This document shows, piece by piece, positions 325-22,070 of a stretch of DNA of 64,000 bases (positions are counted from its first letter, which is position 1; each line of letters starts with the position of its first letter). The translations under genes were made by a program, and so were the position numbers. The notes under the pieces were generated by a model that saw only the letters and a list, made by a program, of their open reading frames with translations, was not told the origin of the DNA and made no database searches. Source of the stretch: Paenibacillus sp. MBLB1832. GTDB lineage: Bacteria; Bacillota; Bacilli; Paenibacillales; NBRC-103111. Where the stretch lies: NCBI RefSeq assembly GCF_032271945.1, contig NZ_CP130319.1, forward strand, positions 4,793,001 to 4,857,000, in the 5' to 3' direction.

Positions 325-385
325 CGTCTAATGTTGTTGTATTCACGAACCCGATAAACTTAAAGGAAAACTGAAGTCTAGGCCT
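325..385 (-). repeat. Truncated attC-like site (left half only)
   Basis: The left arm is recognisable (core TCTAAT, then GTTGTTGTATTCACGAACCC and a degraded GATAAACTTAAAGG), but the sequence then diverges. The usual second hairpin and the right arm CGTGAATACGGTGTT are absent before the next gene. This repeat has probably lost its right half by deletion and could not fold into a normal paired-arm site. Confidence 0.7.
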
Positions 386-424
386 TCCTGAACTACCTAC
401 AAAAGATTATACATCTATTATTCT

Positions 425-721
425 TTAATATTCCTCTTTCAAGTTCTTTCTACTGAAAAACCTCAATGAGAATTGATAAGTTAGAGCACACAGTATCCAA
501 TAACCAAAAATTAGAATATTATCAGGAAATAACAGGTTTAAACTCTTATTATCACTCAGCGCCAAATACGTCACTATTACCACTATCATCGAAAATCCCA
601 AGTACAGCAAAGTTTCAACCAATAATATCACTTTATTAATTCTTCTTGTCATTAAGTTAATAATTTGAGAACAAGGTATTCCAATCAGTAGTAATACTGG
701 GAAGGTAACAATCATAAACAA
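425..721 (-). CDS. Small membrane protein, cassette gene, unknown
   Basis: 98 residues with three or four hydrophobic stretches (roughly residues 3-20, 29-53 and 68-86) and a basic C-terminal tail (FFSRKNLKEEY). The start is a TTG at 721, five bases after AGGAG; an in-frame ATG two codons later is an alternative. A 33-codon hydrophobic ORF (741-842) lies just upstream in the same direction, so this cassette may carry two small membrane proteins. No family recognised. Confidence 0.55.
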   Translation of the reverse strand: MFMIVTFPVLLLIGIPCSQIINLMTRRINKVILLVETLLYLGFSMIVVIVTYLALSDNKSLNLLFPDNILIFGYWILCALTYQFSLRFFSRKNLKEEY

Positions 722-740
722 TACGACTCCTAGTAAGCTC

Positions 741-842
741 TCAAAAGGTATGCGCTATAAATATCAGAATTGTCAGTTGAAGTATTGTTGGGCAAACTAG
801 AACTGCCACTAGAAATGAGAGTAAATAATGTTTTATCTTCAT
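741..842 (-). CDS. Possible very short membrane peptide, 33 aa
   Basis: ATG at 842, stop at 741. The peptide begins MKIKHYLLSFLVAVL and is one hydrophobic helix with a lysine-rich start, like a single-pass membrane peptide. It ends about 20 bases before the TTG start of the next membrane protein, and AGGAG lies between the two. The upstream ribosome binding site is weak (GGTG). It could be a small protein, a translational leader, or the displaced N-terminus of the downstream gene. Confidence 0.35.
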   Translation of the reverse strand: MKIKHYLLSFLVAVLVCPTILQLTILIFIAHTF

Positions 843-877
843 GGTTCACCGCTCTCAAATAGATCTGCATAGATTGC

Positions 878-1041
878 AGATAACGTTGTTGTATTCACGA
901 CGCCGAGAGGCTTAAGGTCACGAAGTGACCAGCTGCGCTTGCGCAGTTAGCCTCGCAGGTGGTCCGCCTGAATTCACTTCCTCGAAATCCCTCTGGCGGA
1001 CCGAGGGCCGAATGGCCCGAAGCGTGAATACGATGTTATAT
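878..1041 (-). repeat. attC-like recombination site 1
   Basis: Complete repeat: left core AGATAAC, left arm GTATTCACG, GAGGCTTAA/TTAGCCTC hairpin, GTCCGCC/GGCGGAC hairpin, short GGGCCGAATGGCCC hairpin, right arm CGTGAATAC, right core GTTATAT. The right flank TTATATGA is the reverse complement of the TCATATAA that precedes the next repeat. The first hairpin holds a longer insert with its own sub-hairpins (GGTCACGAAGTGACC, CTGCGCTTGCGCAG). Confidence 0.88.
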
Positions 1042-1158
1042 GACGTTCTCCACTTCTTAGAGCTACTCAAAAATAATTATTTATTTCTCTAAATAAAGAT
1101 GCTGCCTAATATAAAATTTTTTTCTGTTTTATCGAATTTCCGAGATGAATTACCAATA

Positions 1159-1473
1159 TTATCGCCTGTTATTATTCAATTCATTATCAATAAAATCTAA
1201 ATAAAAAGAACCGCCCTTAATTGAAACTTCATCATCGCATACACTACAATCATATATTCCTTGTCCATCTTTAATAGTTATGCCAGCACCGCATGTCGGG
1301 CAATGAAAATAATTCTTGGATTCAATCAAATGCTTATTAAATATTACACTTTCATTTGATTCATCTGTGTAAAAACCATTTTCGAGTTGAGTACTTTTGC
1401 ATTTAGTGCATACTGTTCTCGAATTACTCATTAAGGTTTGACAGTTTAAACATCTTTTCATTTTGATTTTCAA
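1159..1473 (-). CDS. Zinc-ribbon protein, cassette gene, unknown
   Basis: 104 residues with four C-x2-C pairs (CLNC, CTKC, CPTC, CSVC), which would make two zinc ribbons. The first ribbon sits at the N-terminus and the second in the C-terminal half. The TTG start at 1473 is chosen because GAGGGGG lies six bases upstream; an ATG four codons later is also possible. Such double ribbons bind zinc structurally and may bind nucleic acid or a partner protein, but nothing here points to a specific role. Confidence 0.6.
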   Translation of the reverse strand: MKIKMKRCLNCQTLMSNSRTVCTKCKSTQLENGFYTDESNESVIFNKHLIESKNYFHCPTCGAGITIKDGQGIYDCSVCDDEVSIKGGSFYLDFIDNELNNNRR

Positions 1474-1534
1474 AATTATCCCCCTCTTTTTTTTATTGGT
1501 GATTTTAATTTCCATTTGCTCTTTGGAGAATGTC

Positions 1535-1695
1535 ATATAAGGTTGTTGTATTCACTAACCCGAGAGGCTTAAGGCGCGTTAGCACCAGGTGGCTTCGCCA
1601 CTTAGCCAGGTGTTGTCTGCCTGAAACCCTCTTCCTCGAAATCCCTCAGGCAGACCAAGGGGCGTTAGCCCCGCAGCGTGAATACGGTGTTAGAT
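1535..1695 (-). repeat. attC-like recombination site 2
   Basis: Complete repeat. The left core is ATATAAG (AAG in place of AAC), and the right core is GTTAGAT. The flank TTAGATGA matches the reverse complement of TCATCTAA before the next repeat. The third hairpin is GGGGCGTTAGCCCC. Confidence 0.87.
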
Positions 1696-1745
1696 GATGT
1701 CGACGACAACTCGAGTAAACGCAAATATGCACTTTAAACTTTATG

Positions 1746-2468
1746 TTATTGAACTTTTTCTATTAATCTTTCAAATATATTCCTTTCATTTTCTCTCAGT
1801 TCCATTGCTATTTCCATTATAAAAGGTTTAGCAAAATCAGTTACCCTAAAATAAATTGGATCAGTATTTTGAAGATTAATAATTCCTTTGTTATGCAAGT
1901 CTTCTAACTCTTTAATCAAGTACTTACTAACATATGTTGCAATTACTTCATCTTTAACAATCAATTGTGGATGCCCAAACTCCGGGTCAGGCGCAATTTT
2001 TGTATTGTTGTTAATCGAGTGTGCAATCGCGAATAATATACTTGGAATATTAGTGATGACCATTGATTTAATAAAGGCTCTAGTAATTTCATTCTTCATT
2101 TTATCAATTGATTTTTCATCCCTTATTGTCATAACCACGTCACTAATAACATTATTTCTTTTCCGTTCAATTTCTTCAAAGTAATTATGCATTGGGTTCT
2201 GAATTACTTTTAAGAAGTTACTGTCGTCTCTATAATCAGTCGGAGCATACAGCTTAGCGTGATGGCTAATCACTAGCTTTACGAAGACCGCTAATACTAT
2301 AAGTGGATATATGACAATAAAAAATATTAACAATCTCTGTGAAAAAACATCAAAAGAACCAGTTCCAACAACTAATGCTGCTACACCATAGATCATAAAT
2401 AAAAATAAAGAAATGATTCCTAATGGGTTTTTGGAAAACGCACTAATTGTTTCTTTATCGTACTTCAT
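1746..2468 (-). CDS. Membrane-anchored protein, cassette gene, unknown
   Basis: 240 residues. The ATG at 2468 follows GGGGGGC eight bases upstream. Two hydrophobic segments near the N-terminus (about residues 15-40 and 45-70) suggest a two-helix anchor. The remaining ~165 residues look soluble, mixed charge and cytoplasmic, apart from a further hydrophobic stretch near residues 135-155. The C-terminus is rich in Glu/Arg (ELRENERNIFERLIEKV). No recognised domain. It fills the cassette between sites 2 and 3. Confidence 0.6.
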   Translation of the reverse strand: MKYDKETISAFSKNPLGIISLFLFMIYGVAALVVGTGSFDVFSQRLLIFFIVIYPLIVLAVFVKLVISHHAKLYAPTDYRDDSNFLKVIQNPMHNYFEEIERKRNNVISDVVMTIRDEKSIDKMKNEITRAFIKSMVITNIPSILFAIAHSINNNTKIAPDPEFGHPQLIVKDEVIATYVSKYLIKELEDLHNKGIINLQNTDPIYFRVTDFAKPFIMEIAMELRENERNIFERLIEKVQ

Positions 2469-2507
2469 TGAAAAGCCCCCCAAATATAATTATGTCTTGG
2501 CTATTTC

Positions 2508-2669
2508 ATCTAACGTTGTTGTATTCACGATCCCGAGAGGCTTAAAGGAGCGCCAGCGACTGGGTCGAAGACTTAGCCTCGCAGGAGTTGTCTGCCTGAA
2601 TCCACTACTTCGAAATCCCTCGGGCAGGCCAAGGGGCGTTAGCCCCGCAGCGTGAATACGGTGTTATCT
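2508..2669 (-). repeat. attC-like recombination site 3
   Basis: Complete repeat with left core ATCTAAC and right core GTTATCT. TTATCTGA at its right flank pairs with TCAGATAA before site 4. Confidence 0.9.
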
Positions 2670-2683
2670 GACGTACTCGACCT

Positions 2684-3391
2684 CTATGATATTCTTGCAA
2701 CTAGTCCTTCACCGATTGAGAATAGAACTTCTTCATTTAATAAGTAAAGACACCTCCATTCCTTGTAAATTGGCACATCGAACATCATTACAATTGGTTT
2801 CATTAAATTACTAATCTCAATGATTTCAATCTTATTGAATTTCGTAAGACTTCTATTATCATTAAATATTTGTTCGCACTGCTCTTCTGATAAATCTTCA
2901 CTATAGATTCCAATTCTATTCTGATATATCTGATCTAAATCATATGTATAGAAGCCCCCTGGGCTATAGAGCCTTGATCCTTCTATTCTCCAAATTTCTA
3001 AAATATCAATTCCTTCAACTCTTGTACCAAAACATCTAATGGTACTTCGATTCATTTGATTCAGTACAGAAACGAACTCATTATATTTAGGCTTTGCCCA
3101 TACTATAGTGCCATTAATAAGACTTTGAACTGGTTCAAAGTCACGATTACTAAACGAGTACTTGGATTTCATTGGCTCTTTCCAAGCAATATGTGTATCT
3201 AAATCTATTACTTCTAAATACCCATAATCAGAACATCCTGGATAATAGCAATGGCTACATACATCAAGCTGAATCAGCGAATCATATTCTGATTCGAGGT
3301 GATAAAAGTAATCTGCAATAATGACACCGTTTAACTTAAGATAAAAAGTTCCTTCAATATGTGGAACTAATTCATATTCGTTTACCATCAT
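2684..3391 (-). CDS. Cassette protein of unknown function, 235 aa
   Basis: Soluble acidic protein, ATG at 3391 with GGAGGTGAT seven bases upstream, a near-perfect ribosome binding site. It contains a C-x2-C-x4-C cluster (CSHCYYPGC, about residues 45-53), which may hold a metal or be redox active, and a stretch rich in aromatic residues around 'YSPGGFYTYDLDQIY'. No family recognised. Stop codon lies only 15 bases from the attC core, the compact spacing typical of cassette genes. Confidence 0.6.
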   Translation of the reverse strand: MMVNEYELVPHIEGTFYLKLNGVIIADYFYHLESEYDSLIQLDVCSHCYYPGCSDYGYLEVIDLDTHIAWKEPMKSKYSFSNRDFEPVQSLINGTIVWAKPKYNEFVSVLNQMNRSTIRCFGTRVEGIDILEIWRIEGSRLYSPGGFYTYDLDQIYQNRIGIYSEDLSEEQCEQIFNDNRSLTKFNKIEIIEISNLMKPIVMMFDVPIYKEWRCLYLLNEEVLFSIGEGLVARIS

Positions 3392-3427
3392 ATGAGATCA
3401 CCTCCAATTGGTCCTTTCGAGTATGTC

Positions 3428-3592
3428 AGATAAAATTATTGTATTCACTAACCCGAAAGGCTTAAAGGAGCGTAGCGACTGGGTGGCTCTACCACTTAGC
3501 CTTGCAGGGTTGTCTGACTGAAACCGCTCCCCCGGAATCTGTTTTGGCAGACCAAGGGGCGCCAGCCCCGCAGCTTGAATACGGTGTTTTAT
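3428..3592 (-). repeat. attC-like recombination site 4 (variant cores)
   Basis: Complete in length, but the left core is AGATAAA and the right core is GTTTTAT. Its right flank does not match the left flank of the next repeat, unlike most sites here. The right arm reads GCTTGAATAC, with one mismatch in the stem. Probably a decayed site or a cassette junction altered after insertion. Confidence 0.82.
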
Positions 3593-3671
3593 GATGGATT
3601 AGCCCCACTTCTTTGAATAGAGACAGGACGTCGGCCCACATTGAATTTATATTCTTATTCTTATTAGAGTT

Positions 3672-4235
3672 TTAATACATTATTGATTTATCCAATCTTA
3701 TTGAATATACCTTATTGTCTATCATACAAAATTCAAGTGTTCGTTTATTTCTCTTATCTATATATCCTATAATCATGCTACCTTGTTCAAATCTTTCATA
3801 ATATTGATACCCATATTGTTCTAATATTGTATTCAGATCATTTCCTAGTGATATTCCTTTATTTGTTTTGAAATCTTTTGAATCATTTCTTATAGATATT
3901 CCATTATCGGTTTTAAAGTCACTTGAATATGTAAAAATCCTTATTATCTTGTCATCATTTTTTTCAGTTACTACAACCATTCCTTTGTTTGATTGATAGT
4001 AGTCAAATAAAGCATTATCCTGACTTTTAAGTTCTCCGACATTACTTAAGAACTCCTCAGACTTTATAGATTGATTTAATTTTACTCCCGAAATATTCTC
4101 GTTAGTCAGATCTGAACTGGTCGTAGTATAGTATTTTAATGTCCTGAATCCCAAATCAAAGTATGAATTTATGCCGATTCCTAAACTAATTATGATGATC
4201 GTAATTACTGCAAGTATCTTCAGTTTTTTTCGCAT
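3672..4235 (-). CDS. Membrane-anchored cassette protein, paralogue of 20022-20540
   Basis: 187 residues with a lysine/arginine-rich start and one transmembrane helix (about residues 5-24), followed by an extracytoplasmic domain. The ATG at 4235 has AGGAAAAG upstream. The protein is very similar along its whole length to the one at 20022-20540. The main difference is an extra ~14 residues here, a tandem duplication of the 'FKT--GIS' segment (FKTDNGISIRNDSKD then FKTNKGISLGND). The DNA downstream of the two genes also matches, so the whole cassette was duplicated. Function unknown. Confidence 0.65.
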   Translation of the reverse strand: MRKKLKILAVITIIIISLGIGINSYFDLGFRTLKYYTTTSSDLTNENISGVKLNQSIKSEEFLSNVGELKSQDNALFDYYQSNKGMVVVTEKNDDKIIRIFTYSSDFKTDNGISIRNDSKDFKTNKGISLGNDLNTILEQYGYQYYERFEQGSMIIGYIDKRNKRTLEFCMIDNKVYSIRLDKSIMY

Positions 4236-4313
4236 TAATCTTTTCCTACTTTCTTCGAGCAACAGGACGTTTCGAACGAGATACTTTCAATTAGTCTCTT
4301 TAGGGCCAATCTT

Positions 4314-4475
4314 TTATAACGTTGTTGTATTCACGAACCCGAGAGGCTTAAAGGAGCGTCAGCGACTGGGTCGAAGACTTAGCCTCGCAGGAGTTGTCTG
4401 CCTGCCTCCCCTTCCTCGAAATGCCTCTGGCAGACCAAGGGGCGATAGCCCCGCAGCGTGAATACGTTGTTATAC
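4314..4475 (-). repeat. attC-like recombination site 5
   Basis: Complete repeat with left core TTATAAC and right core GTTATAC. Flank TTATACGAA pairs with TTCGTATAA before site 6. Confidence 0.89.
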
Positions 4476-4500
4476 GAAGTAATTGCCTTCTTTGAAAAAC

Positions 4501-5151
4501 TTACAAACTCTTTAAGGTCCCATAATTTATTTCTTTAATTCTATTTACTATGTAGTCTGCAGCTGAAAGATCTTGATTACCTGAATTCAAATTCTTATAC
4601 CCAATACACTTCATTCCTGCGGCTTTAGCTGCTACAATTCCGTTTTTAGAATCCTCTAAGACTATACATTCTTCCACTCTGACGCCAAATAATTTTGCGA
4701 TTCTTAGATAAATATCTGGGGCCGGTTTCCCCTTCAATACTTCTTCTCCACTAATTATGTCACTAAAATTATGACGTATATCAAACTTCTTCAAAACTGC
4801 TTCAATAAAAATTCTAGGAGATGAAGATGCCAAGCCAATTCGAATCTGATTTTGTTTCAGCGTTACAATTAACTCCTTGACTCCTTCTATTGGTTGCTCG
4901 TTTGACTGTTTAAGTAATTCTAGCTTTGTATTTAATTGCAAGTTAATTATCTCTTCAACAGTTTGACTTAAGGAGTATTTAGCAATTAGCTTCGACCACA
5001 TTTCAGGATTGGTCATCCCAACAAATTCTTCTAGTTCCTTTTGGGTTATGTCAATTCCAAATGTATTCATCACATACTCATCTACTTTAAAATGAAGCGG
5101 CTCACTATCAATAATTACCCCATCCATATCAAAAATAAATGTACTAAACAT
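4501..5151 (-). CDS. HAD-superfamily hydrolase, beta-phosphoglucomutase-like
   Basis: 216 residues, the usual length for this subfamily. Motif I is FIFDMDGVIID near residues 5-12 with the two catalytic aspartates. Motif II is LASSS near residue 108, motif III is KGKPAPDIY near 140, and motif IV is EDSKNGIVAAKAAGM near 170. These are the four HAD motifs of sugar-phosphate phosphatases and phosphoglucomutases with an alpha-helical cap. The substrate cannot be read from sequence. It is a cassette gene, so it is likely an accessory metabolic or detoxifying phosphatase. The start is the ATG at 5151. Confidence 0.85.
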   Translation of the reverse strand: MFSTFIFDMDGVIIDSEPLHFKVDEYVMNTFGIDITQKELEEFVGMTNPEMWSKLIAKYSLSQTVEEIINLQLNTKLELLKQSNEQPIEGVKELIVTLKQNQIRIGLASSSPRIFIEAVLKKFDIRHNFSDIISGEEVLKGKPAPDIYLRIAKLFGVRVEECIVLEDSKNGIVAAKAAGMKCIGYKNLNSGNQDLSAADYIVNRIKEINYGTLKSL

Positions 5152-5195
5152 ATATTATGAACTCCTTCATGTTTTTAAAATATTGCAATAATTTC

Positions 5196-5356
5196 GTATA
5201 ACGTTGTTGTATTCACAAACCCGAGAGGCTTAAAGGAGCGCAGCGACTGGGTCGAAGACTTAGCCTCGCAGGAGTTGTCTGCCTGATTAAGCTCCCTCGA
5301 AATCCCTCTTGCAGACCAAGGGCCATAAGGCCCGCCGCGTGAATAGGGTGTTAGAA
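5196..5356 (-). repeat. attC-like recombination site 6
   Basis: Complete repeat with left core GTATAAC and right core GTTAGAA. The right flank TTAGAAGA does not match the left flank of site 7 (TTCTTATAA), so the cassette body between them may be a fusion or deletion product. Confidence 0.86.
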
Positions 5357-5811
5357 GATGTTGGCGCCTTCTCTGAAATACTTAAAAATAGTCTTTATCG
5401 TTCATTATCAATTCTAATCGAAATTTCCTCAGTCCACTGTGCATCCCTTACCCAAAATCTTATAGTATGTAAAGTCAAAATTCACATCAGTTTTATCTAA
5501 ACTCAGCATATGTTTGCACATCTATCTAGCCCAAGAGCGTATAGTCTTGAATAGTCACTTCTCGTCGATTCTTTCCAGATTCCGTATATGTACGCACATC
5601 TGCCTAACCCGAGAGCGTATAGTCTTGTAGAGTTACTTGGCGTCGATTCTTTCCAGGTTCCGCATATGTTTAATCATATATCTGACCCGAGAGCGTTTTC
5701 TTATATAGTCACTTCACATCGTTTCTTTCCAGATTACACCATATAATTACAATTCAATATTACACATCAACTGTAGATGTTTTTATTTTTGTATTGGTTT
5801 GCGCCAATTTC
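5357..5811. other. Gene-less cassette body with three ~75-bp direct repeats
   Basis: 455 bases without a credible ORF on either strand. From about 5500 to 5740 there are three imperfect direct copies of a unit of roughly 75 bases. Each copy contains CATATGT or similar, then CACATCT, then a CC-AGAGCGT block, then TAGTCACTTC and a TCGATTCTTTCCAG end. A weaker relative of the same unit occurs at about 14970-15060, next to another cassette gene. Possibly a remnant of a structured RNA or small repeat family. Confidence 0.6.
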
Positions 5812-5971
5812 TTATAACGTTGTTGTATTCACGAACCCGAGAGGCTTAAAGGAGCGGAGCGACTTGGTCGAAGACTTAGCCTCGCAGGAGTTGTCTGCCA
5901 GATTACACTTCCTCGAAATCCCACTTGCAGACCAAGGGGCGTAGCCCCGCAGCGTGAATAATGTGTTAGCT
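5812..5971 (-). repeat. attC-like recombination site 7
   Basis: Complete repeat with left core TTATAAC and right core GTTAGCT. Flank TTAGCTGA pairs with TCAGCTAA before site 8. The right arm reads CGTGAATAATG, one base off the common form. Confidence 0.87.
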
Positions 5972-6499: not shown

Positions 6500-6657
6500 A
6501 GCTAACGTTGTTGTATTCACGAACCTGAGAGGCTTAAGGCGCGGCAGAGCCGGGTCGAAGACTTAGCCTCGCAGGGTTGTCTGCTGAATCCGCTTCCTCG
6601 AAATGCCTCTTGCAGACCCAGGGCAGAATGGCCCGCAGCGTGAATACGCTGTTAGCT
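6500..6657 (-). repeat. attC-like recombination site 8
   Basis: Complete repeat with left core AGCTAAC and right core GTTAGCT. Flank TTAGCTGA pairs with TCAGCTAA before site 9. It belongs to the toxin-antitoxin cassette, whose genes point the other way. Confidence 0.9.
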
Positions 6658-6705
6658 GATGTTGCTGGCTTCTTCGACTTCACCCTCAATGGTTATACAC
6701 ATCCC

Positions 6706-6735
6706 TTTATGAAGTTATTTATTTCGTGGTATAAT
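6706..6735 (+). promoter_or_regulatory. Extended -10 promoter of the toxin-antitoxin cassette
   Basis: TGGTATAAT at 6727-6735 is a perfect extended -10 element (TG-n-TATAAT). The -35 region about 17 bases upstream is weak. It lies about 40 bases before the antitoxin start, so this cassette brings its own promoter, unlike its neighbours where none is obvious. Confidence 0.7.
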
Positions 6736-6771
6736 GTCTTATATAGTTTTTTATGAAGAGGAGCTGAAAAT

Positions 6772-7005
6772 ATGGCCGTTTCTAAAGATCACTTAAACAA
6801 ATTAATTCAACAATTGTCTGATGATGCCCTTCCTATAGCTGCAGACTTCCTAGAAAAGTTACTAATTGGAAAAGATCAACATATCCCTTGGGATGATGAA
6901 CCAACAACACTAGAGGACTTAGACGCGATTAAAAAAGCCAAAGAAGCATTTGCTCGTGGTGAGGGTATCAAACTTAAGAATGTTATAGATGACTTACTCA
7001 ATTGA
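6772..7005 (+). CDS. Antitoxin of a RelE/ParE-type toxin-antitoxin pair
   Basis: 77-residue acidic protein with GAAGAGGAG upstream of the ATG. The C-terminal half reads WDDEPTTLEDLDAIKKAKEAF followed by a gap of charged residues and ends in VIDDLLN, typical of small antitoxins that sit before RelE-like toxins. It is expected to bind and neutralise the toxin and to repress the shared promoter. Its end overlaps the toxin start by 17 bases, the usual sign of translational coupling. Plus-strand orientation, against every other cassette gene here. I cannot assign it firmly to RelB, Phd or another antitoxin fold. Confidence 0.75.
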   Translation: MAVSKDHLNKLIQQLSDDALPIAADFLEKLLIGKDQHIPWDDEPTTLEDLDAIKKAKEAFARGEGIKLKNVIDDLLN

Positions 7006-7255
7006 ATTTAACAAAGATGCCTTAAAGTACCTACAAAAACTAGATAAACCTACACGCACACGGATCGTACAGCATCTACAAATTCTTAGTGAAAATCCAT
7101 ATCACACCGAACTTGACATCAAGAGAATGCAAGGTACTACTGGAGATTATCGCTTGAGAGTAGGTTCTTTCAGAGTTATTTACTCTGTGAAAGATGCTGT
7201 ATTACTTATCTATGTAATTAAAATTGGCTCTCGTGGTGATGTCTATAAATCTTAG
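6989..7255 (+). CDS. RelE/ParE-family toxin
   Basis: 88 residues. The start reads MTYSIEFNKDALKYLQKLDK, and the core reads GDYRLRVGSFRVIYSV with a C-terminal IKIGSRGDVYK. This is the RelE/ParE fold, in which the basic 'YRLRVG-FRVIY' strand is diagnostic. RelE proteins cut mRNA on the ribosome and ParE proteins poison gyrase; sequence alone does not decide here, although the C-terminal 'I--R-DVYK' arrangement is common in RelE-type members. Coupled to the upstream antitoxin and followed by a terminator. Such cassettes are known to stabilise large cassette arrays. Confidence 0.85.
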   Translation: MTYSIEFNKDALKYLQKLDKPTRTRIVQHLQILSENPYHTELDIKRMQGTTGDYRLRVGSFRVIYSVKDAVLLIYVIKIGSRGDVYKS

Positions 7256-7263
7256 CATCTGGT

Positions 7264-7290: not shown

Positions 7291-7309
7291 TTATGGTTTC
7301 AGCAATTTC

Positions 7310-7469: not shown

Positions 7470-7494
7470 GAAGGAATCTGCTTCTTCGAACTAC

Positions 7495-8243: not shown

Positions 8244-8269
8244 GATGGATTAGCCCTCCTGAAATACTT

Positions 8270-15126: not shown

Positions 15127-15369
15127 CTAGGCCTTCTTCGGAAAGCCATATACTAATAGTACAAATCCAACAAAGAAAAGGAACCATACATAAAAATTAT
15201 CAAAGAAACCAGGGTAATTCGGTGAATTATCGACACCTGTCCCATGTGAAGCATACGCTGCTACAATTATCGAAGAAGAAATTCTTGCCGAAATTCTCTC
15301 GATTGTGTAAAATAGCCCGCTAATGATAATTAATATTGTACCTAAACTCTTATAGAAGTTATTTCCCAT
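15127..15369 (-). CDS. Small membrane protein, cassette gene, unknown
   Basis: 80 residues from an ATG at 15369, with GGAGGGTGA seven bases upstream. Two hydrophobic segments (about residues 9-22 and 58-76) flank an exposed stretch with HGTGVDNSPNYPG. Between its stop and attC 19 lie about 230 bases without a gene, containing a degenerate relative of the direct repeats at 5500-5740. Confidence 0.58.
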   Translation of the reverse strand: MGNNFYKSLGTILIIISGLFYTIERISARISSSIIVAAYASHGTGVDNSPNYPGFFDNFYVWFLFFVGFVLLVYGFPKKA

Positions 15370-15476
15370 CGAAATATCACCCTCCAATTAGTCTCTTTAA
15401 AATTCAGCTTAAAGTTTCGATTATTACTTCAATCGCTTGTTTTAATATTTTTTATTACTGGTGTTTCGCCAATTTC

Positions 15477-15637
15477 TTCTAACGTTGTTGTATTCACGAA
15501 CCCGAGAGGCTTAAAGGAGCGAATGCGACTGGGTCGAAGACTTAGCCTCGCAGGGTTGTCTGCCTGATTCCACTTCTTCGAAATCCCTCGGGCAGACCAA
15601 GGGGCGTCAGCCCCGTAGCGTGAATATGGTGTTATCA
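15477..15637 (-). repeat. attC-like recombination site 20
   Basis: Complete repeat with left core TTCTAAC and right core GTTATCA. Flank TTATCAGA pairs with TCTGATAA before site 21. Confidence 0.9.
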
Positions 15638-15679
15638 GATGCCGGTGTCTTCTTCGAATATGCTTACATATCTTGTTTG

Positions 15680-16105
15680 CTATATTCCTAATATTGATAT
15701 TTCTTTATATTCTTGTAGGTTCTTTAATATCCATGTCTGAAACTCTTCAATTAACATATATAAATTCTTACAATTCCTATCAAAATCTTTAACAAAGATA
15801 CTTTTAGAATCTTTAAAAAGGAAGCGTATATAATGCTCCAGTTCTTCTTCTCTTGGATTTTTTAAGAATTCTTTTACTTCATTTAGGTTGTAAATTATTC
15901 TATTCCATACTACAGAGTCAAGGCTAAAGAAACCATAATGATCATAATCTTTATATGCCTTTTCAATTGAAGGTTCAAAGTATGCAAATACTTGTTCATC
16001 AAAAAAAATAGAGTGATCATTCCAACATTTCCCTTCATACTTCCCTGGTAATACTTCAAAGTAACAGGTCCCTTCTAATTCTACTTTATCATTTATAATT
16101 TTAAT
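15680..16105 (-). CDS. Cassette ORF lacking a normal start codon (AUU start or frameshift)
   Basis: An uninterrupted frame of 141 residues without ATG, GTG or TTG at its start. The product reads KIINDKVELEGTCYFEV onward, is rich in Tyr/Phe/Glu, and ends in KNLQEYKEISILGI. An ATT at 16105 follows AAAGGA by about ten bases and could act as a rare AUU start. Alternatively, an ATG at 16115 (ATG ATT AAA CAT TAA) would enter this frame if one or two bases had been lost or gained, which would make the gene a recent frameshift mutant. Content and position argue that it is, or recently was, a real gene. Function unknown. Confidence 0.55.
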   Translation of the reverse strand: MKIINDKVELEGTCYFEVLPGKYEGKCWNDHSIFFDEQVFAYFEPSIEKAYKDYDHYGFFSLDSVVWNRIIYNLNEVKEFLKNPREEELEHYIRFLFKDSKSIFVKDFDRNCKNLYMLIEEFQTWILKNLQEYKEISILGI

Positions 16106-16157
16106 GTTTAATCATTCCTTTCTTAATAGGATTTATACAATGTTCCACACCGGTTTC

Positions 16158-16315
16158 TGATAACGTTGTTGTATTCACGAACCCGAGAGGCTTAAGGCGC
16201 GGCAGCGCCGGGTCGAAGACTTAGCCTCGCAGGGTTGTCTGCCTGATACGACTTCCTCGAAATCCCTCTGGCAGATCAAGGGGCGTAGCCCCGCAGCGTG
16301 AATACGGTGTTATCT
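16158..16315 (-). repeat. attC-like recombination site 21
   Basis: Left core TGATAAC, right core GTTATCT. Flank TTATCTGA pairs with TCAGATAA before site 22. By eye it is identical to site 28 apart from the left core, consistent with duplication of the whole cassette. Confidence 0.9.
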
Positions 16316-16808: not shown

Positions 16809-16969
16809 AGATAACGTTGTTGTATTCACGAACCCTCACTGGCTTAAGCCGCGTCAGCGGCGGGTCGAAGACTTAGCCAGTGCAGGGTTGTCTAGCCTGA
16901 TTCCGCTTCCTCGAAATCCCTCGGGCAGACCAAGGGGCGTAGCCCCGCAGCGTGAATACGGTGTTAGAT
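16809..16969 (-). repeat. attC-like recombination site 22
   Basis: Left core AGATAAC, right core GTTAGAT. Flank TTAGATGA pairs with TCATCTAA before site 23. First hairpin is the TCACTGGCTTAAG / TTAGCCAGTG variant also seen at site 14. Confidence 0.9.
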
Positions 16970-17004
16970 GATGCCATCTGACTTCATTGATATACAATCA
17001 ATAA

Positions 17005-17703
17005 TTATCTCCTTCCTTCTTTCATTTCACTTTCGTAGTATTCTAATTCTTTCTCCGCTGATATCCAGTATAGGGCTGTCTTTATTAATCTCTTTAAATC
17101 TGATATATCTTTGTCTTCCCACTTTTGAGTATAATGAGCATGGTCATTCCCTAACCATGATGCTCTTCTGGCTAAAAATTTTACTTTTTCATCAGTTACG
17201 TATTGTTCAATTACAGCATCGAATCTGTGATTATTTTTTATCTTTTCTGCCTCTTCAGGGAATCTAATAATGAGATAATCCTTAACTAAAAATTCTAACG
17301 CCTTCCTATAACCAAGACCACAAATCTGATCAAGCTTTCTCTCTTCAGCCTGTTTGGCTTGATTAAATATACTAACAAAATTTTCTGAGATTTCATTGAT
17401 GGGTTCAGAAAATTCTTCTTCTTTAAATTTAAAAGGACTACATCCCACATATTTTGGTAAAGAACTGTCATATATATTGAATAATGTATTCTTACTATAT
17501 ATTCCAAAAAACATCTCTAAACATGCTTTTCTTGGACATGCATAAACAACCCTTATGTTCCAATAATCATTCTTATGAAAATCATATCCGAATAAAATCT
17601 CTGGGTGAATTCCATGATGACAAAACGGACATGTGTCAGGAATTGTTAAATCCAATGAATCAATCTTCTTTTTGTCGATTACTGTGTAATTTTTATCTTC
17701 CAT
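17005..17703 (-). CDS. DUF4145-domain protein with zinc-ribbon-like N-terminus
   Basis: 232 residues. Near residue 25 is CPFCHHG and near residue 55 CPRKAC, so a C-x2-C / C-x4-C metal site is likely. The C-terminal half holds 'GLGYRKALEFLVKDYLI' and 'RASWLGNDHAHYTQKWEDKD', the two landmarks of DUF4145. DUF4145 domains occur in or beside restriction and other defence proteins and resemble nucleotide-binding HEPN-like helices, but their activity is not settled. ATG at 17703 with AAAGGAT upstream. A defence role is possible, not shown. Confidence 0.8.
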   Translation of the reverse strand: MEDKNYTVIDKKKIDSLDLTIPDTCPFCHHGIHPEILFGYDFHKNDYWNIRVVYACPRKACLEMFFGIYSKNTLFNIYDSSLPKYVGCSPFKFKEEEFSEPINEISENFVSIFNQAKQAEERKLDQICGLGYRKALEFLVKDYLIIRFPEEAEKIKNNHRFDAVIEQYVTDEKVKFLARRASWLGNDHAHYTQKWEDKDISDLKRLIKTALYWISAEKELEYYESEMKEGRR

Positions 17704-17729
17704 GTTTTATTATCCTTTCAGATGGTTTC

Positions 17730-17917
17730 ATCTAACGTTGTTGTATTCACGAACCCGAGAACCTTAAGGGAAGCATTGAGCCAAAAGCGAAGCTGGCTCC
17801 TGACCGGCCGCGACGCGGTTAGGTTTCGCAGAGGTTGTCTGCTGATTCCACTTCTTCGAAATGCCTCTTGCAGACCAAGGCCCCTTTAGGGGCCGCCGCG
17901 TGAATACGGTGTTATGT
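17730..17917 (-). repeat. attC-like recombination site 23 (longest variant)
   Basis: 188 bp. Left core ATCTAAC, right core GTTATGT. The first hairpin is much enlarged (GAGAACCTTAAG ... TTAGGTTTCGC, enclosing GAGCCAAAAGCGAAGCTGGCTC and GGCCGCGACGCGGTT), and the third is CCCCTTTAGGGG. Flank TTATGTGA pairs with TCACATAA before site 24. Confidence 0.87.
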
Positions 17918-17942
17918 GAAGTCCCTGTCTTCCTAGAGTTAC

Positions 17943-18362
17943 CTAATTATTCTTTAGACTTTCTAACCATTCATTATAAAAATCTAATTGTTCATCAATC
18001 GCTACATATTCTAGACTTGGGTCATAGTCAAAAATATCTACTACATCAGTTAATTTAGCTTGTTTGCCCTTCAATAGTTTATATGCCTTACTGCCTCCCA
18101 TAGAAATCTGCATTGGGGAGGGGTAGACATTTCTTGCTGCTCCATTACATTCCAATATCATCCCTTGGTCTTCCAATATTCTTCTTAGTTCTATTAGAGC
18201 TTCGAAGAAATACTCTTTCTGTATTGAAATAATATCATTGTTTGTATTTAGTTCTAATTTGACCTCATCTTTATTCGTACAAGCTTCTTCATAGATTATC
18301 ATTTCAGTGACAGAAACTTTATTATTGTTTATATACTTAATCCTTACAGTTTTTGCTTCCAT
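17943..18362 (-). CDS. Cassette protein of unknown function, 139 aa
   Basis: Soluble acidic protein; ATG at 18362 with AAAGG about 12 bases upstream. The middle contains 'LECNGAARNVYPSPMQISMGGSKAYKL', a glycine-rich motif seen in a family of small uncharacterised bacterial proteins, often annotated only as hypothetical and sometimes linked to immunity loci. The C-terminus is rich in Asp/Glu and aromatic residues. I do not assign a function. Confidence 0.6.
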   Translation of the reverse strand: MEAKTVRIKYINNNKVSVTEMIIYEEACTNKDEVKLELNTNNDIISIQKEYFFEALIELRRILEDQGMILECNGAARNVYPSPMQISMGGSKAYKLLKGKQAKLTDVVDIFDYDPSLEYVAIDEQLDFYNEWLESLKNN

Positions 18363-18427
18363 CTCATCTTCAGCCTTTCAAATTTATTGTGATTATTTTG
18401 ATTCAATATGGGTTTCACAGGGATTTC

Positions 18428-18588
18428 ACATAACGTTCTTGTATTCACGAACCCGAGAGGCTTAAAGGAGCGAAAGCGACTGGGTCGAAGACTTAGCCTC
18501 GCAGGAGTTGTCTGCCTGAGTCCGCTTCCCGAAATGCCTCGGGCAGACCGAGGAGCGTCAGCGACGATGCGTGAATATGGTGTTATGT
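18428..18588 (-). repeat. attC-like recombination site 24
   Basis: Left core ACATAAC, right core GTTATGT. Flank TTATGTGA pairs with TCACATAA before site 25. Third hairpin GGAGCGTCAGCGAC; right arm GCGTGAATATG. Confidence 0.89.
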
Positions 18589-18652
18589 GATGTTCGAGCC
18601 ATCTTCGAGTTTGCTACCAACCGTCCTTTTTACTTCTCGAATTTACGTAGAA

Positions 18653-18991
18653 CTATATTATTATCTGTATTTTGTTCTTCCTAACTCGATTAACGATAAA
18701 CACTACCATTCCATTAATTACTGGTAAGGATAACCATAATAATGGCACTGTGTAAAAAGAAATTGCACTATCCCAATCATAGGTCAAGTAACCAAGCACT
18801 TTATGGAAATACCAAATATCAATTATCCATATAGTTGGAATTTGTATAATCGCTATTGGATACGTAAATTTTCGTCTCCAGGACTTTGATAGAATGTAGC
18901 CATTAAAAGCCGCCAATATAACTAAAAAAGTTAGTAGACCAAAGGGTGGCTTAAGTAATCCGGTGAACCACATATTGAAAATAGGGGTCAT
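18653..18991 (-). CDS. Three-helix membrane protein, cassette gene, unknown
   Basis: 112 residues; ATG at 18991 with GAGGAGG six bases upstream. Hydrophobic segments at about residues 15-34, 43-66 and 80-101 suggest three helices, with a basic C-terminus (RVRKNKIQIII). Rich in Trp and Pro. Resembles generic small membrane proteins of Bacillales; no function can be inferred. Confidence 0.58.
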   Translation of the reverse strand: MTPIFNMWFTGLLKPPFGLLTFLVILAAFNGYILSKSWRRKFTYPIAIIQIPTIWIIDIWYFHKVLGYLTYDWDSAISFYTVPLLWLSLPVINGMVVFIVNRVRKNKIQIII

Positions 18992-19069
18992 TAGGTCCTC
19001 CTCTAAATTATTTTTTTATTATTGAATAACTTTTGGTCTTCATAGTTTCTAATAATATGCTCGAATTTC

Positions 19070-19231
19070 ACATAACGTTGTTGTATTCACGAACCCGAGA
19101 GGCTTAAAGGAGCGTAGCGACTGGGTCGAAGACTTAGCCTCGCAGGAGTTGTCTGCCTGATTCTACCTCCTCGAAAATACTTCTGGCAGACCAAGGGCCG
19201 TCAGGCCCGCCGCGTGAATACGGTGTTATAC
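19070..19231 (-). repeat. attC-like recombination site 25
   Basis: Left core ACATAAC, right core GTTATAC. Flank TTATACGC pairs with GCGTATAA before site 26, a different sequence from its neighbours yet still matched. Confidence 0.9.
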
Positions 19232-19324
19232 GCTGCCCCGACTTCTTCGAGTATACTTTCAAAACATGGGTTTTAATTCTTTACAGCCATTGAACTTGGT
19301 ACTATCCAAATGTTATTGTTTGCC

Positions 19325-19750
19325 TTACTGAAACTGCAATTTTATTTGTCCGATTTCATTTTGTTTAAGTCTTTTATAGTTAGTTCCCATTCCCACGATA
19401 CTCTTTCCTGGCATAAACGGTATAGGGTAGATATTCCTATTATTAATTATATCGAAGTATTCATGTACTCTAATTGTATCTCCTGGTTTTAAAACGATTT
19501 CATTATTTGAACTAATAATTTTTTGAATTGTTATTTCAGTTTCTACCATTCTGTCATTAATAAATTGTTTTCCTGTTCCTATTGCTTCTACTTCAGCATC
19601 AATCTGTGCTGGAAAAAAATCATATATACCATAAGTAACTTGTTTCTTATCAAGAATTAGATACTTATCTGCAATGCAATACACTGCAACGACTGTAATT
19701 AAAGTAGCTAACAAGACTTTGAAGAATATCTTTGTGGGTTTTAATTTCAT
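19325..19750 (-). CDS. Exported or membrane-anchored cassette protein, unknown
   Basis: 141 residues with a basic start (MKLKPTKIFFK) and one hydrophobic segment at about residues 10-27, which may be an uncleaved anchor. The rest is a beta-rich extracytoplasmic domain ('EIVLKPGDTIRVHEYFDI' near residues 83-100) of the sort seen in small secreted proteins. ATG at 19750 with AAAGGA upstream. No family recognised. Confidence 0.6.
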   Translation of the reverse strand: MKLKPTKIFFKVLLATLITVVAVYCIADKYLILDKKQVTYGIYDFFPAQIDAEVEAIGTGKQFINDRMVETEITIQKIISSNNEIVLKPGDTIRVHEYFDIINNRNIYPIPFMPGKSIVGMGTNYKRLKQNEIGQIKLQFQ

Positions 19751-19787
19751 TTTTTAGTCCTTTTAATTTATTGGGTTTCGGGGTTGC

Positions 19788-19948
19788 GTATAACGTTGTT
19801 GTATTCACGAACCCGAGAGGCTTAAAGGAGCGCTAGCGACTGGGTCGAAGACTTAGCCTCGCAGTGGTTGTCTGCCTGATACGACTTCCTCGAAATTCCT
19901 CGGGCAGACCAAGGGGCGTAGCCCCGCGGCGTGAATACGGTGTTATAT
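19788..19948 (-). repeat. attC-like recombination site 26
   Basis: Left core GTATAAC, right core GTTATAT. Flank TTATATGA pairs with TCATATAA before site 27. Confidence 0.9.
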
Positions 19949-20021
19949 GATGGATTGGCCCCACTTCTTTGAATAGAGACAGGACGTCGGCCCACATTGA
20001 ATTTATATTCTTATAAGAGTT

Positions 20022-20540
20022 TTAATACATTCTTGATTTATCCAATCTTATTGAATACACCTTATTGTCCACCATGCAAAATTCTAGTGCTCGTTTATTT
20101 CTCTTATCTATATATCCTATAATCATGAAGCCTTGTTCAAATCTTTCATAATATTGATACCCATACTGTTCTAATATTGTATTCAGATCATTTCCTATAG
20201 ATATTCCTTTATTGGTTTTAAAATTATTTGAATAAGTTGCAATCCTTATAATCAAGTCATCATTTTTTTCTGTTGCTACATCCATTCCTTTGTTTGATCG
20301 ATAGTAGTTAAATAAGGCATTTTCTAGACTTTTAAGTTCTCCGACATTATTTAAGAACTCCTCAGACTTTATCGATTGATTTAACTTTACTCCCGAAATA
20401 TTCTCGTTAGTAAGATCTGTACTGGTCGTTGTATAATATTTTAATGTCCTAAATCCCAAATCAAAGTACGAATTTATGCCGATTCCTAAACTTACGATGA
20501 TGATCGTAATAATTGCAAATATCTTCAGTTTTTTTCGCAT
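20022..20540 (-). CDS. Membrane-anchored cassette protein, paralogue of 3672-4235
   Basis: 172 residues: basic start, a transmembrane helix at about residues 5-24, then an extracytoplasmic domain ending in 'LEFCMVDNKVYSIRLDKSRMY'. It is nearly the same protein as that at 3672-4235, with a handful of substitutions and without the ~14-residue duplicated segment. The sequence from the attC into the gene is also shared ('GGACGTCGGCCCACATTGAA' downstream of both). ATG at 20540. Function unknown; two copies in one array show duplication of the whole cassette. Confidence 0.65.
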   Translation of the reverse strand: MRKKLKIFAIITIIIVSLGIGINSYFDLGFRTLKYYTTTSTDLTNENISGVKLNQSIKSEEFLNNVGELKSLENALFNYYRSNKGMDVATEKNDDLIIRIATYSNNFKTNKGISIGNDLNTILEQYGYQYYERFEQGFMIIGYIDKRNKRALEFCMVDNKVYSIRLDKSRMY

Positions 20541-20620
20541 TAATCTTTTCCAACTTTCTTCAAGCAACAGGACGTTGCGAACGAGATACTTTCAAATAGT
20601 CACTTTGGGGCCAATCTTTC

Positions 20621-20782
20621 ATATAACGTTGTTGTATTCACGAAACCGAGAGGCTTAAAGGAGCGTTAGCGACTGGGTCGAAGACTTAGCCTCGCAGGGA
20701 TTGTCTGCCTGAATAACTTCCTCGAAATCCCTCGGGCAGACCAAGGGAGCGTAGCGACCGCAGCGTGAATACGGTGTTAGGT
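20621..20782 (-). repeat. attC-like recombination site 27
   Basis: Left core ATATAAC, right core GTTAGGT. Flank TTAGGTGA pairs with TCACCTAA before site 28. Third hairpin GGGAGCGTAGCGACC. Confidence 0.9.
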
Positions 20783-20809
20783 GATGTTCGGGCCATCTTC
20801 GAATTACAA

Positions 20810-21280
20810 TCACAGTATTTCTTTTCTTCTATTTTTTAATTTATTGAATCCATAATCAATTAATATAGCTAATACAGTGAAGATAGTTATTAAAATAATA
20901 AAAAAAACTGCAGCCCAGCCAGCAGCACCAACATCATCTTTCTTAAGATCTAAAATAGAACTATGAATTTGATTGAAGAAGAATACTAATCCAAACATCA
21001 ATAGTGTAAATCCAATGAATTTCCTACTAATAAAACAAATTGTTGATATTATTAATACAATAAGTAATGGGGGAATGATCATAACATGTAAATCTCGAAT
21101 AATTTTCGGATTATAAAGGGGCTTAATTATTAAAATTAGCATTAATAGAAAATACACTAATCCAGTTATAATCATTTTTATGGTTTTTGATTTATTTAGT
21201 TTATAGTCATTTACAATTGATCTGACCGATAAGTATAAATAGAAACATAGACCGAGAACTGGTAATACTAAGATTTCCAT
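20810..21280 (-). CDS. Multi-helix membrane protein, cassette gene, unknown
   Basis: 156 residues from an ATG at 21280 with GGGAG eight bases upstream. The frame is open to 21343, inside the next attC, but no ribosome binding site supports that start. Four or five hydrophobic segments cover about residues 3-18, 33-55, 66-82, 88-105 and 122-145. The C-terminus is basic (NKLKNRRKEIL). No family recognised. Confidence 0.58.
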   Translation of the reverse strand: MEILVLPVLGLCFYLYLSVRSIVNDYKLNKSKTIKMIITGLVYFLLMLILIIKPLYNPKIIRDLHVMIIPPLLIVLIISTICFISRKFIGFTLLMFGLVFFFNQIHSSILDLKKDDVGAAGWAAVFFIILITIFTVLAILIDYGFNKLKNRRKEIL

Positions 21281-21341
21281 ATCTAATTCTCCCTTAGTAA
21301 AAGTACTAATTGAATCATTTTTCATAATTTGCCCGAATTTC

Positions 21342-21499
21342 ACCTAACGTTGTTGTATTCACGAACCCGAGAGGCTTAAGGCGCGGCAGCGCCGGGTCGA
21401 AGACTTAGCCTCGCAGGGTTGTCTGCCTGATACGACTTCCTCGAAATCCCTCTGGCAGATCAAGGGGCGTAGCCCCGCAGCGTGAATACGGTGTTATCT
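21342..21499 (-). repeat. attC-like recombination site 28 (first cassette)
   Basis: Left core ACCTAAC, right core GTTATCT. Flank TTATCTGA pairs with the TCAGATAA at the attI-like junction 21991-21998. It is the attC of the cassette closest to the recombinase gene. Confidence 0.9.
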
Positions 21500-21992
21500 G
21501 ATACTCCGATGATTAGCCCTAGCAAGATTTATTGATTTTGGTTTCTCCCCCCGTCCCTCGTTAGCAACTGCTCTCATAGTTTTTCTGATCTTCTATGATA
21601 CCAGCGGACGTTTAGTGACTCTCTCTGCCAACGTTTATTCGTAACGTTCCACTACAGCAGCAGTCACGCACAACGAGTTAAAGGTCATAAGTTCTAAAAA
21701 TACGGCGGACGTGAATGATCTTACTCCTCGAGAATCGTTCGCAACGTTCCGCCGCCGTTGAAGTTACACACGACAAGAAAAAGGATTTAAGTTCTAAATT
21801 CGGCGGATGTGAATGATCTCAATCCTCGAATGTCAATCGTAACGTTCCACTACAGTTGATGTCATCGCCGTATCTATTTATTCGTTTTTCGTTTTTTAGG
21901 GGGGAGAAACCTTTGCATAGCTGAATATATTCAGCTATAAAAAATCAATAAAGCTTGCTCCAGGTTAGAATAATTTACACTTCAGGAGTTTC
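21500..21992. other. Gene-less cassette, family B copy 3, in first array position
   Basis: No credible ORF. By eye it is identical to 16316-16808, including the attached attC. It sits between attC 28 and the attI-like junction, the place where newly captured cassettes enter integrons. This suggests it is a recent re-insertion of the interior copy. Confidence 0.8.
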
Positions 21993-22070
21993 AGATAACT
22001 TCTAATTTACGAACCCGTTTTCGTTATTTATGCCAAAATGAGATGTTATGCGTAGTTGGGTTCGTGTAAA
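21993..22070 (-). other. attI-like junction of the cassette array
   Basis: AGATAAC at 21993-21999 is the last cassette core and reads GTTATCT on the minus strand. To its right the sequence TTCTAATTTACGAACCCG resembles the start of an attC left arm, but no full attC follows. Instead AATTTACGAACCC at about 22004-22016 pairs with GGGTTCGTGTAAATT at about 22058-22072, with GTTATGCG inside. It lies between the first cassette and the stop codon of the recombinase gene. By position it should be the primary insertion site. Confidence 0.6.

Follow-up and report, generated by a model that had tools for sequence, protein, structure and literature searches.

The cassette array and its recombinase gene

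The window analysed here, 64,000 nucleotides of Paenibacillus sp. MBLB1832 (NZ_CP130319.1, assembly GCF_032271945.1; positions 4793001-4857000 of a single 5.85-Mb contig), carries across positions 325-22070 an array of structured repeats alternating with small cassettes, with an attI-like site and a gene for a tyrosine recombinase upstream of it in the same sense. The initial annotation had described a chromosomal integron-like array in a Firmicute; the host is supported, and the count of 28 complete and one partial attC-type repeats was borne out by a pattern search and by a covariance model (R1). Within window 1-23000 the pattern search picked up left arms at 29 places and right arms at 27, and at 23000-64000 it gave no arm of either kind, with a 28th right arm (site 12734-12893), which has an inserted base, added by eye and recovered by the covariance model. 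R1 was seeded with 35 sites, 28 of the window and seven of relative G017, and matches its own seed sites by construction. Across the whole genome (E up to 0.01) R1 found 29 sites in a single array at genome 4792491-4814496 and no further sites outside it, 28 inside the window and a degenerate 29th 360 bp beyond the window start (L028:18992-19142).

The sites are 133-182 bp long, most about 155 bp, and read on the plus strand TAAC-GTTGTT-GTATTCACG ... CGTGAATAC-GGT-GTTA, with hairpin arms inside. The cassettes had been called AT-rich and are so, the bodies having 32.4% GC vs 48.8% at window 24-64 kb. In 27 of the 28 bodies (that beside the attI-like site left out) the longest open reading frame (ORF) of at least 60 amino acids lies on the minus strand in 19 and on the plus strand in two, with none in six. 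The sense strand of the array is minus, such that its recombinase-proximal start lies near 22000 and the array runs out past 325. The recombinase and the adjoining insertion region comprise:

22413..23210, minus: tyrosine recombinase, 5′ fragment, with HARP-like N-terminal domain (about residues 1-80), Phage_int_SAM_4 (99-177) and catalytic start (Pfam, family profile)
22072..22356, minus: tyrosine recombinase, 3′ fragment (catalytic end), in a different frame (Pfam PF00589, E 3.2e-21)
22000..22071, minus: attI-like insertion site, recombinase stop to first cassette, with inverted repeat TTTACGAACCC / GGGTTCGTGTAAA; a duplicated unit ends exactly here
21996..21999, minus: putative crossover tetranucleotide, GTTA in sense, attI / cassette 1 (unit comparison)

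The attC-type sites, located with R1 unless stated, are:

329..370, minus: attC, partial (left arm alone, pattern search; right end set by eye)
881..1038, minus: attC
1538..1692, minus: attC
2511..2666, minus: attC
3431..3589, minus: attC
4317..4472, minus: attC
5199..5353, minus: attC
5815..5968, minus: attC
6503..6654, minus: attC
7313..7466, minus: attC
8082..8240, minus: attC
8782..8934, minus: attC
9400..9553, minus: attC
10130..10282, minus: attC
10814..10969, minus: attC
11471..11625, minus: attC
12050..12221, minus: attC
12734..12893, minus: attC (inserted base in right arm)
13933..14087, minus: attC
14763..14895, minus: attC, one hairpin shortened
15480..15634, minus: attC
16161..16312, minus: attC of duplicated unit, copy B (R1 and unit comparison)
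16812..16966, minus: attC
17733..17914, minus: attC
18431..18585, minus: attC
19073..19228, minus: attC
19791..19945, minus: attC
20624..20779, minus: attC
21345..21496, minus: attC of duplicated unit, copy C (R1 and unit comparison)

Fold and circle signature of the attC-type sites

In 116 distinct sites from 14 genomes, two-sided changes occurred in 26 of 33 modelled base pairs and 95.1% of cells were paired vs 82.7% in shuffled alignments, the alignment having been fitted to the model and being biased towards modelled pairs. When partners were slid by 1-3 columns they paired in 26-47%, and none of 500 shuffles attained any of five covariation measures. The internal hairpins reported earlier are thus real and covarying.

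In an excised integron cassette the attC is built from that cassette's two ends. For each cassette, a circle test therefore set the bases that follow GTTA in one site against those that precede TAAC in the next, and found that the cassette ends complement one another, whereas the ends within a linear repeat do not. In the window, where the test took 27 of 28 cassettes because the pattern missed one site, the first eight positions matched 6.15/8 on average vs 4.07 within the linear site (maximum among 10000 shuffles 4.67), with 10.7 of 12 bases matched vs 5.8 shuffled (maximum 6.7). Among 132 cassettes of other arrays, offsets 1-5 matched in 119-127, offset 6 in 39, offset 7 in one and offsets 8-13 in 102-126. 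In 14 of 15 array stretches the match lay above the stretch's own shuffled mean by over 2.5 of 12 bases. Of the 157 cassettes with at least 9/12 matched elsewhere, 152 have at position 7 a G.T wobble on the plus strand, and thus C.A on the complementary strand. An attC-like secondary structure, set beforehand as a test of the initial annotation, is present both as covariation and as complementarity of cassette ends, and by sequence the repeats are attC-type recombination sites. Two features that define integrons, an attC cluster with a conserved fold and GTT-bounded cassettes with circle-complementary ends, are found together in this array.

A tyrosine recombinase lacking the IntI-specific insert

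The recombinase gene has the same orientation as the cassettes and is broken in two frames at 22072-23210, between the catalytic K and H. Its 5′ fragment matched PF13495 (E 4.5e-13) and PF00589 (E 1.8e-9). The catalytic residues of tyrosine recombinases are R, K, H, R, H and Y. In 45 relatives, drawn from genome and contig scans, the corresponding columns K245/K248, H310, R313, H336 and Y345 are invariant and R220 nearly so, so that the catalytic residues of a tyrosine recombinase are found in the relatives. The frame is open in at least nine relatives.

The KDR column is separated from the H-x-x-R column by 61-63 residues in all 45 relatives, and a motif search for the same spacing gave 61-63 in 42 of 45, with 76, 76 and 128 in the other three. 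In the broken gene of the window the spacing is 194 nt, about 65 codons, whereas in IntI it is 103 in four sequences and 104 in a fifth. The IntI-specific insert, roughly 41 residues between the K and H-x-x-R motifs, is therefore absent and the enzyme is not a classical IntI. In keeping with this, five full-length relatives scored 196.0-213.9 bits and the 3′ fragment 106.9 bits against TIGR02249 (cut-off 265), IntI1 scoring 507.5. The best NCBIfam profile of the catalytic part was NF040815 (XerA-type, 'site-specific tyrosine recombinase/integron integrase'), which gave 214.8-237.9 bits in five relatives, three passing and two missing its cut-off of 220, and which does not span the N-terminal domain of these recombinases. 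In a tree from which the window's broken copy was left out, IntI formed one clade (98/99) and window-type recombinases another (95/88), apart from it, a topology joining the two not being rejected. Foldseek gave IntI4 as the best PDB match (E 7.8e-17).

The N-terminal domain appears HARP-like by remote similarity. The HARP profile (PF07443) matched 16 of 31 N-terminal domains at E up to 0.1 (best 3.1e-6), with one full-length relative reaching 23.9 bits, slightly below the gathering score of 25, and the family profile matched the HARP domain of SMARCAL1 (PDB 4o66) at E 2.3e-4, the next best match, unrelated, being at 0.045. In SMARCAL1 HARP belongs to an annealing helicase; here the domain is fused to a tyrosine recombinase. 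A LexA box upstream of the integrase gene is frequent in integrons, if not universal; the SOS/LexA box CGAAC-N4-GTTCG with up to two mismatches was found upstream of none of 11 recombinase genes, and the shorter GAAC-N4-GTTC with one mismatch upstream of one of the 11.

The attI-like site and cassette turnover

Two units of 655 bp, 16161-16815 and 21345-21999, have the same sequence throughout, with 0 bp of identity beyond either end, and the second, copy C, abuts the attI-like site. Since the identity ends exactly at cassette boundaries, the crossover would lie inside TAAC/GTTA. An attI adjoining the integrase gene is likewise indicated across the arrays. Of 15 arrays, 11 have an attI-like junction (a cassette start with at least 9/12 complementarity) past the 3′ end of the recombinase gene, ten of them at a distance of 72-224 nt and one at 923 nt, and in four none was found; these junctions rest on sequence, the best GTT of each stretch being taken without a shuffled control. 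In several attI-like stretches, duplicated dyads, for example TTTACGAAGTTCGCAAATA, can be seen by eye.

In relative G079 seven identical pairs were found among 61 units. At the left end the match stops within 1 bp in five of the seven (56 and 141 bp in the rest), while at the right end, where conserved site letters lie, it runs on for 2-51 bp. The G079 array itself (L067-L069) holds about 60 sites in 60 kb, shortened 113-nt attC variants included. A comparison of 181 cassettes of 16 genomes yielded 17 ORF pairs between genomes (E up to 1e-8, more than 60% of the query covered) and, at E up to 1e-10, 22 DNA matches between genomes, several of them to copies of one toxin-antitoxin cassette recurring in five genomes. 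With so few cross-genome matches, cassette content differs almost completely between species, and the expectation that it should differ among relatives holds at that level, the same genes not being kept in all. Cassette turnover is thus seen both in identical units and in the comparison between species.

Occurrence in the family, class and phylum

The core pattern, allowing up to two mismatches, was matched in 40 of 104 family genomes, where single matches may be chance; its reversed control gave at most one match in any listed row. The recombinase (E up to 1e-35) was found in 18 of the 104; in 15 of these, attC (R1) follows it in the same orientation, between the gene end and about 2.5 kb away. 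In a class-level sample of 398 genomes R1 (E up to 1e-5) had matches in 43, spread over nine families, and in a phylum-level sample of 398 the G079 recombinase (E up to 1e-60) was matched in 30. Both recombinase and R1 matches occur in Paenibacillus solani, P. antarcticus, P. assamensis and Paenibacillus sp. USDA918EY, the frame being broken in the last two. At L076 (G089) R1 matches lie in both orientations near a broken recombinase.

With one attC as query, blastn (E up to 1e-5) matched one of 72,556 plasmid records, from Cohnella herbarum, and none of 50,697 phage records. On this plasmid (NZ_CP051681.1, 174 kb) R1 matches three times at L310:12001-13652, where genes for a Rid hydrolase and a NUDIX protein lie, and a fourth time, more weakly, at 742-903, with other tyrosine recombinases beside, so that cassettes of this type occur on a plasmid too. 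R1 found no attC in eight viral-collection loci searched, of 80 fetched. One viral-collection locus, L084, has a recombinase relative with a group II intron reverse transcriptase-like ORF (by eye) about 4 kb downstream (5025-5813 and 9636-10475), and no attC was found there by R1.

Recombinase relatives beyond the phylum

A genome scan for recombinase relatives, of which the best 80 of 557 were kept, found them across many phyla, with 59 of these 80 aligning from query residue 45 or earlier and so including part of the N-terminal extension. Cassettes were sought with a generic, sequence-independent test requiring paired arms between AAC and GTT together with complementary cassette ends, run on 82 loci (the window, L034 and L164-L243). 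At least two cassettes were found in 14 of the 82 and none in shuffled copies, and in all 14 loci the cassettes sit 3′ of the recombinase. The 14 comprise, in Bacillota, the window, three Paenibacillus, Fusibacter and a Peptococcaceae bin; in Bacteroidota, Aequorivita, Arundinibacter roseus, Spirosoma, Flavobacterium palustre and another Bacteroidetes bin; and, elsewhere, a Nitrospirae bin, a marine biofilm bin and a Dehalococcoidia assembly. Sensitivity is low, since the true array L034 yielded a single cassette. The generic test gives no orientation and, being symmetric, reports nearly the same cassettes on both strands, which are not independent. In 19 further loci of the window's phylum at least one cassette was found in ten, all 3′ of the recombinase, with none in the control for these loci (624 kb) once three cassettes of L179 and L187, which lie 3′ of the recombinase, are set aside. 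L194 has one cassette at strict settings, and a lone 5′-side match at relaxed settings was uncounted. Among the best 80, the contig ends less than 2 kb downstream of the gene in 39 and upstream in ten, an excess of the kind that repeat arrays would cause.

An Altarchaeum bin (L192, an 11.7-kb contig) has a recombinase at 699-1754 and, by eye, a GTTAGCTGAA start near 1849 and attC-like sites near 4550, 5480, 7730, 8465 and 9580, most with matching cassette ends, of which the strict generic test counts one cassette. This suggests that the Altarchaeum bin holds the same arrangement of recombinase and cassettes, the archaeal case being provisional because the contig could be mis-binned. In an Undinarchaeales bin (L169) two such recombinases lie in tandem at a contig end (6517-7647 and 8016-9086).

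A probable integron-like system served by a different recombinase

The order of the locus by sequence is recombinase, attI-like site and cassettes, with the recombinase and the attC sites in one sense and every complete cassette closing with a strongly structured attC. It is very probable, from these sequence features, that this is a chromosomal cassette array, integron-like in its working and served by a non-IntI tyrosine recombinase. The system would work like a chromosomal integron and departs from the definition in one respect, the absence of IntI. The architecture of a chromosomal integron proposed by the initial annotation stands as regards the array, the attC-type sites and cassette turnover between species; that annotation had passed over the adjoining recombinase, with its HARP-like N-terminal domain and no IntI-specific insert, and the wide occurrence of the arrangement.

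In the proposed mechanism, single-stranded attC would fold mainly via the strand opposite the genes, where the conserved G.T pairs can form and their complement, C.A, cannot. The recombinase would bind the folded hairpin, aided by the HARP-like domain in place of the IntI-specific insert, and would carry out strand exchange within GTTA, by which cassettes are cut out as circles and put in at the attI beside its own gene. As the recombinase is frameshifted, the array in this genome has probably ceased to change, barring the action in trans of an intact enzyme.

A number of observations weigh against this reading. The recombinase frame is broken in this genome and in several relatives, and an approximately unbiased (AU) test does not reject a clade joining window-type recombinases with IntI (p 0.086). 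There was no circle signal in the L076 minus strand (two cassettes), one of the 15 array stretches. By DNA folding the plus strand, opposite the genes, was more stable in 132 of 137 circles (mean -3.75 kcal/mol), but shuffled sequences too lean to the plus strand in 44 of 60, so that the strand preference is in part one of composition. In the family, three of the 15 genomes with attC downstream of the recombinase have a single attC (G045, G068 and G072), G012 and G047 have a relative with no attC within the stretch examined, and G095 stops at a contig edge. Further afield, the generic test was positive in just 14 of 82 loci and in only ten of the 19 further loci, L167 (Dehalococcoidia) appears by eye to be reversed in orientation, and many contigs stop just past the gene, limiting the test.

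Three other explanations were considered. In the first, which we regard as unlikely, the array is the remnant of an ordinary IntI integron, a cluster of attC sites lacking an integron integrase (CALIN), with a classical IntI moving cassettes in trans and the adjoining recombinase being coincidental. The frameshift and the unrejected joint clade favour this, as does the published statement that CALINs are common and broadly distributed (PMC9668308). Against it, none of seven TIGR02249 matches in the window's own genome exceeds the cut-off, the other family genomes not having been searched for IntI; moreover, of 18 family genomes with the same recombinase, 15 have it upstream of attC in one sense, and 11 of 15 arrays have an attI-like junction that suits its 3′ side. 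In the second, rated as very unlikely, an array formerly mobile by this recombinase is now altered solely through homologous recombination between repeats. The recombinase is indeed broken here and repeats of 130-180 bp could recombine homologously, but the exact ends fall at the GTTA core and not anywhere in the 150-bp repeat, and relatives retain open frames; this conflicts with an integron-like system for this strain only and not for the family. Lastly, it is highly improbable that these are interspersed structured repeats (repetitive extragenic palindromic (REP)- or miniature inverted-repeat transposable element (MITE)-like, or structured RNAs) spread by transposition with genes merely between them since, for all their strong hairpins and similarity within a genome, complementarity of ends within a cassette and duplication of repeat plus body with exact ends would be unexpected, the recombinase association speaks against it, and the sole Rfam match of the repeats (E up to 1) was mir-303 at 27.8 bits, far below the gathering score of 77.

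With the array read as an integron-like system run by a non-IntI recombinase, a broader proposal is given moderate confidence, namely that HARP-tyrosine recombinases without the IntI-specific domain run a second, cross-phylum integron lineage (Bacillota, Bacteroidota, Nitrospirota, Chloroflexota and probably archaea). This would explain why many attC clusters appear to have no integrase and why integrons seem scarce in Firmicutes, with folded single-stranded attC recognised via another accessory domain and strand choice marked by conserved G.T wobbles.

Cassettes and cargo

When 20 of the 23 listed cassette ORFs were scanned with Pfam, four gave matches above cut-off (HAD hydrolase, GNAT, RES and ParE) and 16 gave no match or matches below cut-off only. 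The cassettes are:

329..884, minus: cassette with partial attC, ORF 425-721, no Pfam match
1035..1541, minus: cassette, zinc-ribbon-like ORF 1159-1536 (Pfam, below cut-off)
1689..2514, minus: cassette, ORF 1746-2483 (Pfam, below-cut-off match only)
2663..3434, minus: cassette, ORF 2684-3391, no Pfam match
3586..4320, minus: cassette, ORF 3672-4262, near-duplicate of 19942-20627
4469..5202, minus: cassette, HAD hydrolase 4501-5151 (PF13419, E 3.1e-37)
5350..5818, no strand: cassette body, no ORF of at least 60 amino acids
5965..6506, minus: cassette, ORF 6018-6458, no Pfam match
6651..7316, plus: cassette, toxin-antitoxin pair 6772-7005 / 6989-7255 (ParE; PF05016, E 7.2e-9)
7463..8085, minus: cassette, GNAT acetyltransferase 7495-8037 (PF00583, E 5.8e-8)
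8237..8785, minus: cassette, ORF 8270-8758, no Pfam match
8931..9403, no strand: cassette body, no ORF of at least 60 amino acids
9550..10133, minus: cassette, ORF 9633-10046, glyoxalase-like (Pfam, below cut-off)
10279..10817, minus: cassette body, copy A (diverged, 539 nt) of 21493-21999
10966..11474, minus: cassette, ORF 11024-11410, no Pfam match
11622..12053, minus: cassette, ORF 11705-12067, extending into attC
12218..12737, no strand: cassette body, no ORF of at least 60 amino acids
12890..13936, minus: cassette, RES-domain protein 12941-13873 (PF08808, E 4.1e-7)
14084..14766, minus: cassette, ORF 14115-14717, 46% identical to a cassette ORF of G017
14892..15483, no strand: cassette, ORF 15127-15387 (minus) or 14985-15323 (plus)
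15631..16164, no strand: cassette body, no ORF of at least 60 amino acids
16309..16815, minus: cassette body, copy B, identical to copy C (21493-21999)
16963..17736, minus: cassette, ORF 17005-17703, DUF4145-like (Pfam, below cut-off)
17911..18434, minus: cassette, ORF 17943-18362, no Pfam match
18582..19076, minus: cassette, ORF 18653-18991, no Pfam match
19225..19794, minus: cassette, ORF 19325-19750
19942..20627, minus: cassette, ORF 20022-20567
20776..21348, minus: cassette, ORF 20810-21343
21493..21999, minus: cassette body 1, copy C, no long ORF, adjoining attI

In the toxin-antitoxin cassette, relatives of which occur in arrays of four other genomes, the antitoxin role of 6772-7005 is inferred from its position, this ORF having no Pfam match. 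Cassettes 19942-20627 and 3586-4320 share two stretches, of 300 and 238 nt, at 90-91% identity. The three-copy body without a long ORF (10279-10817, 16309-16815 and 21493-21999) shows by eye long nested inverted repeats (AGCAAG..TTTATTGATTTT and GGTTTCTCCCCCC) and could be a promoter, RNA or MITE-like cassette. Elsewhere in the window an IS3-type transposase-like ORF was seen by eye at 29270-30619 on the minus strand, next to a gcvT-like ORF.

Relation to known integrons

The array resembles the sedentary chromosomal integrons run by IntI, such as the superintegron of Vibrio cholerae with its V. cholerae repeats (VCR), in its folded attC-type sites with R and L arms, its small and mostly unknown genes, its one-strand organisation and duplicated cassettes, its toxin-antitoxin cassettes and its attI-like site beside the recombinase. 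It differs from them in a recombinase without the IntI insert and with a HARP-like N-terminal domain, and in a recombinase gene that points the same way as the cassettes. Compared with the VCR in length and core, the sites here differ in being about 155 bp long with several internal hairpins and in an end complementarity of about 14 nt beyond the core. In reverse-oriented integrons of the Treponema type the integrase is oriented as the cassettes and is IntI; the present array is like these in integrase orientation and unlike them in lacking IntI.

One study gives 19 toxin-antitoxin cassettes for V. cholerae (PMC11023631). In Firmicutes, a 2008 survey reports no integrons in 103 genomes (PMC2426708); a 2021 review places the phylum among those with integrons (PMC8618304). 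The IntegronFinder 2.0 paper gives one complete Firmicutes integron (Limnochorda pilosa) and a few CALIN, calling integrons there extremely rare and their lack intriguing (PMC9024848). An extra domain sets IntI apart from other integrases (PMC9024848, PMC9668308), and attC clusters without IntI are reported as more abundant and taxonomically wider than are integrons that carry intI (PMC9668308). Searches of the open-licence PMC literature, preprints excluded, brought up no paper describing arrays of this type in Paenibacillaceae or in company with the present recombinase.

Surveys recognise integrons by IntI, and a non-IntI recombinase, if true, would shrink the puzzles of integron rarity in Firmicutes and of attC clusters without IntI. 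The view that ties the extra domain of IntI to recombination of folded single strands would become directly testable, and a large unexplored cassette pool would open in Gram-positive bacteria.

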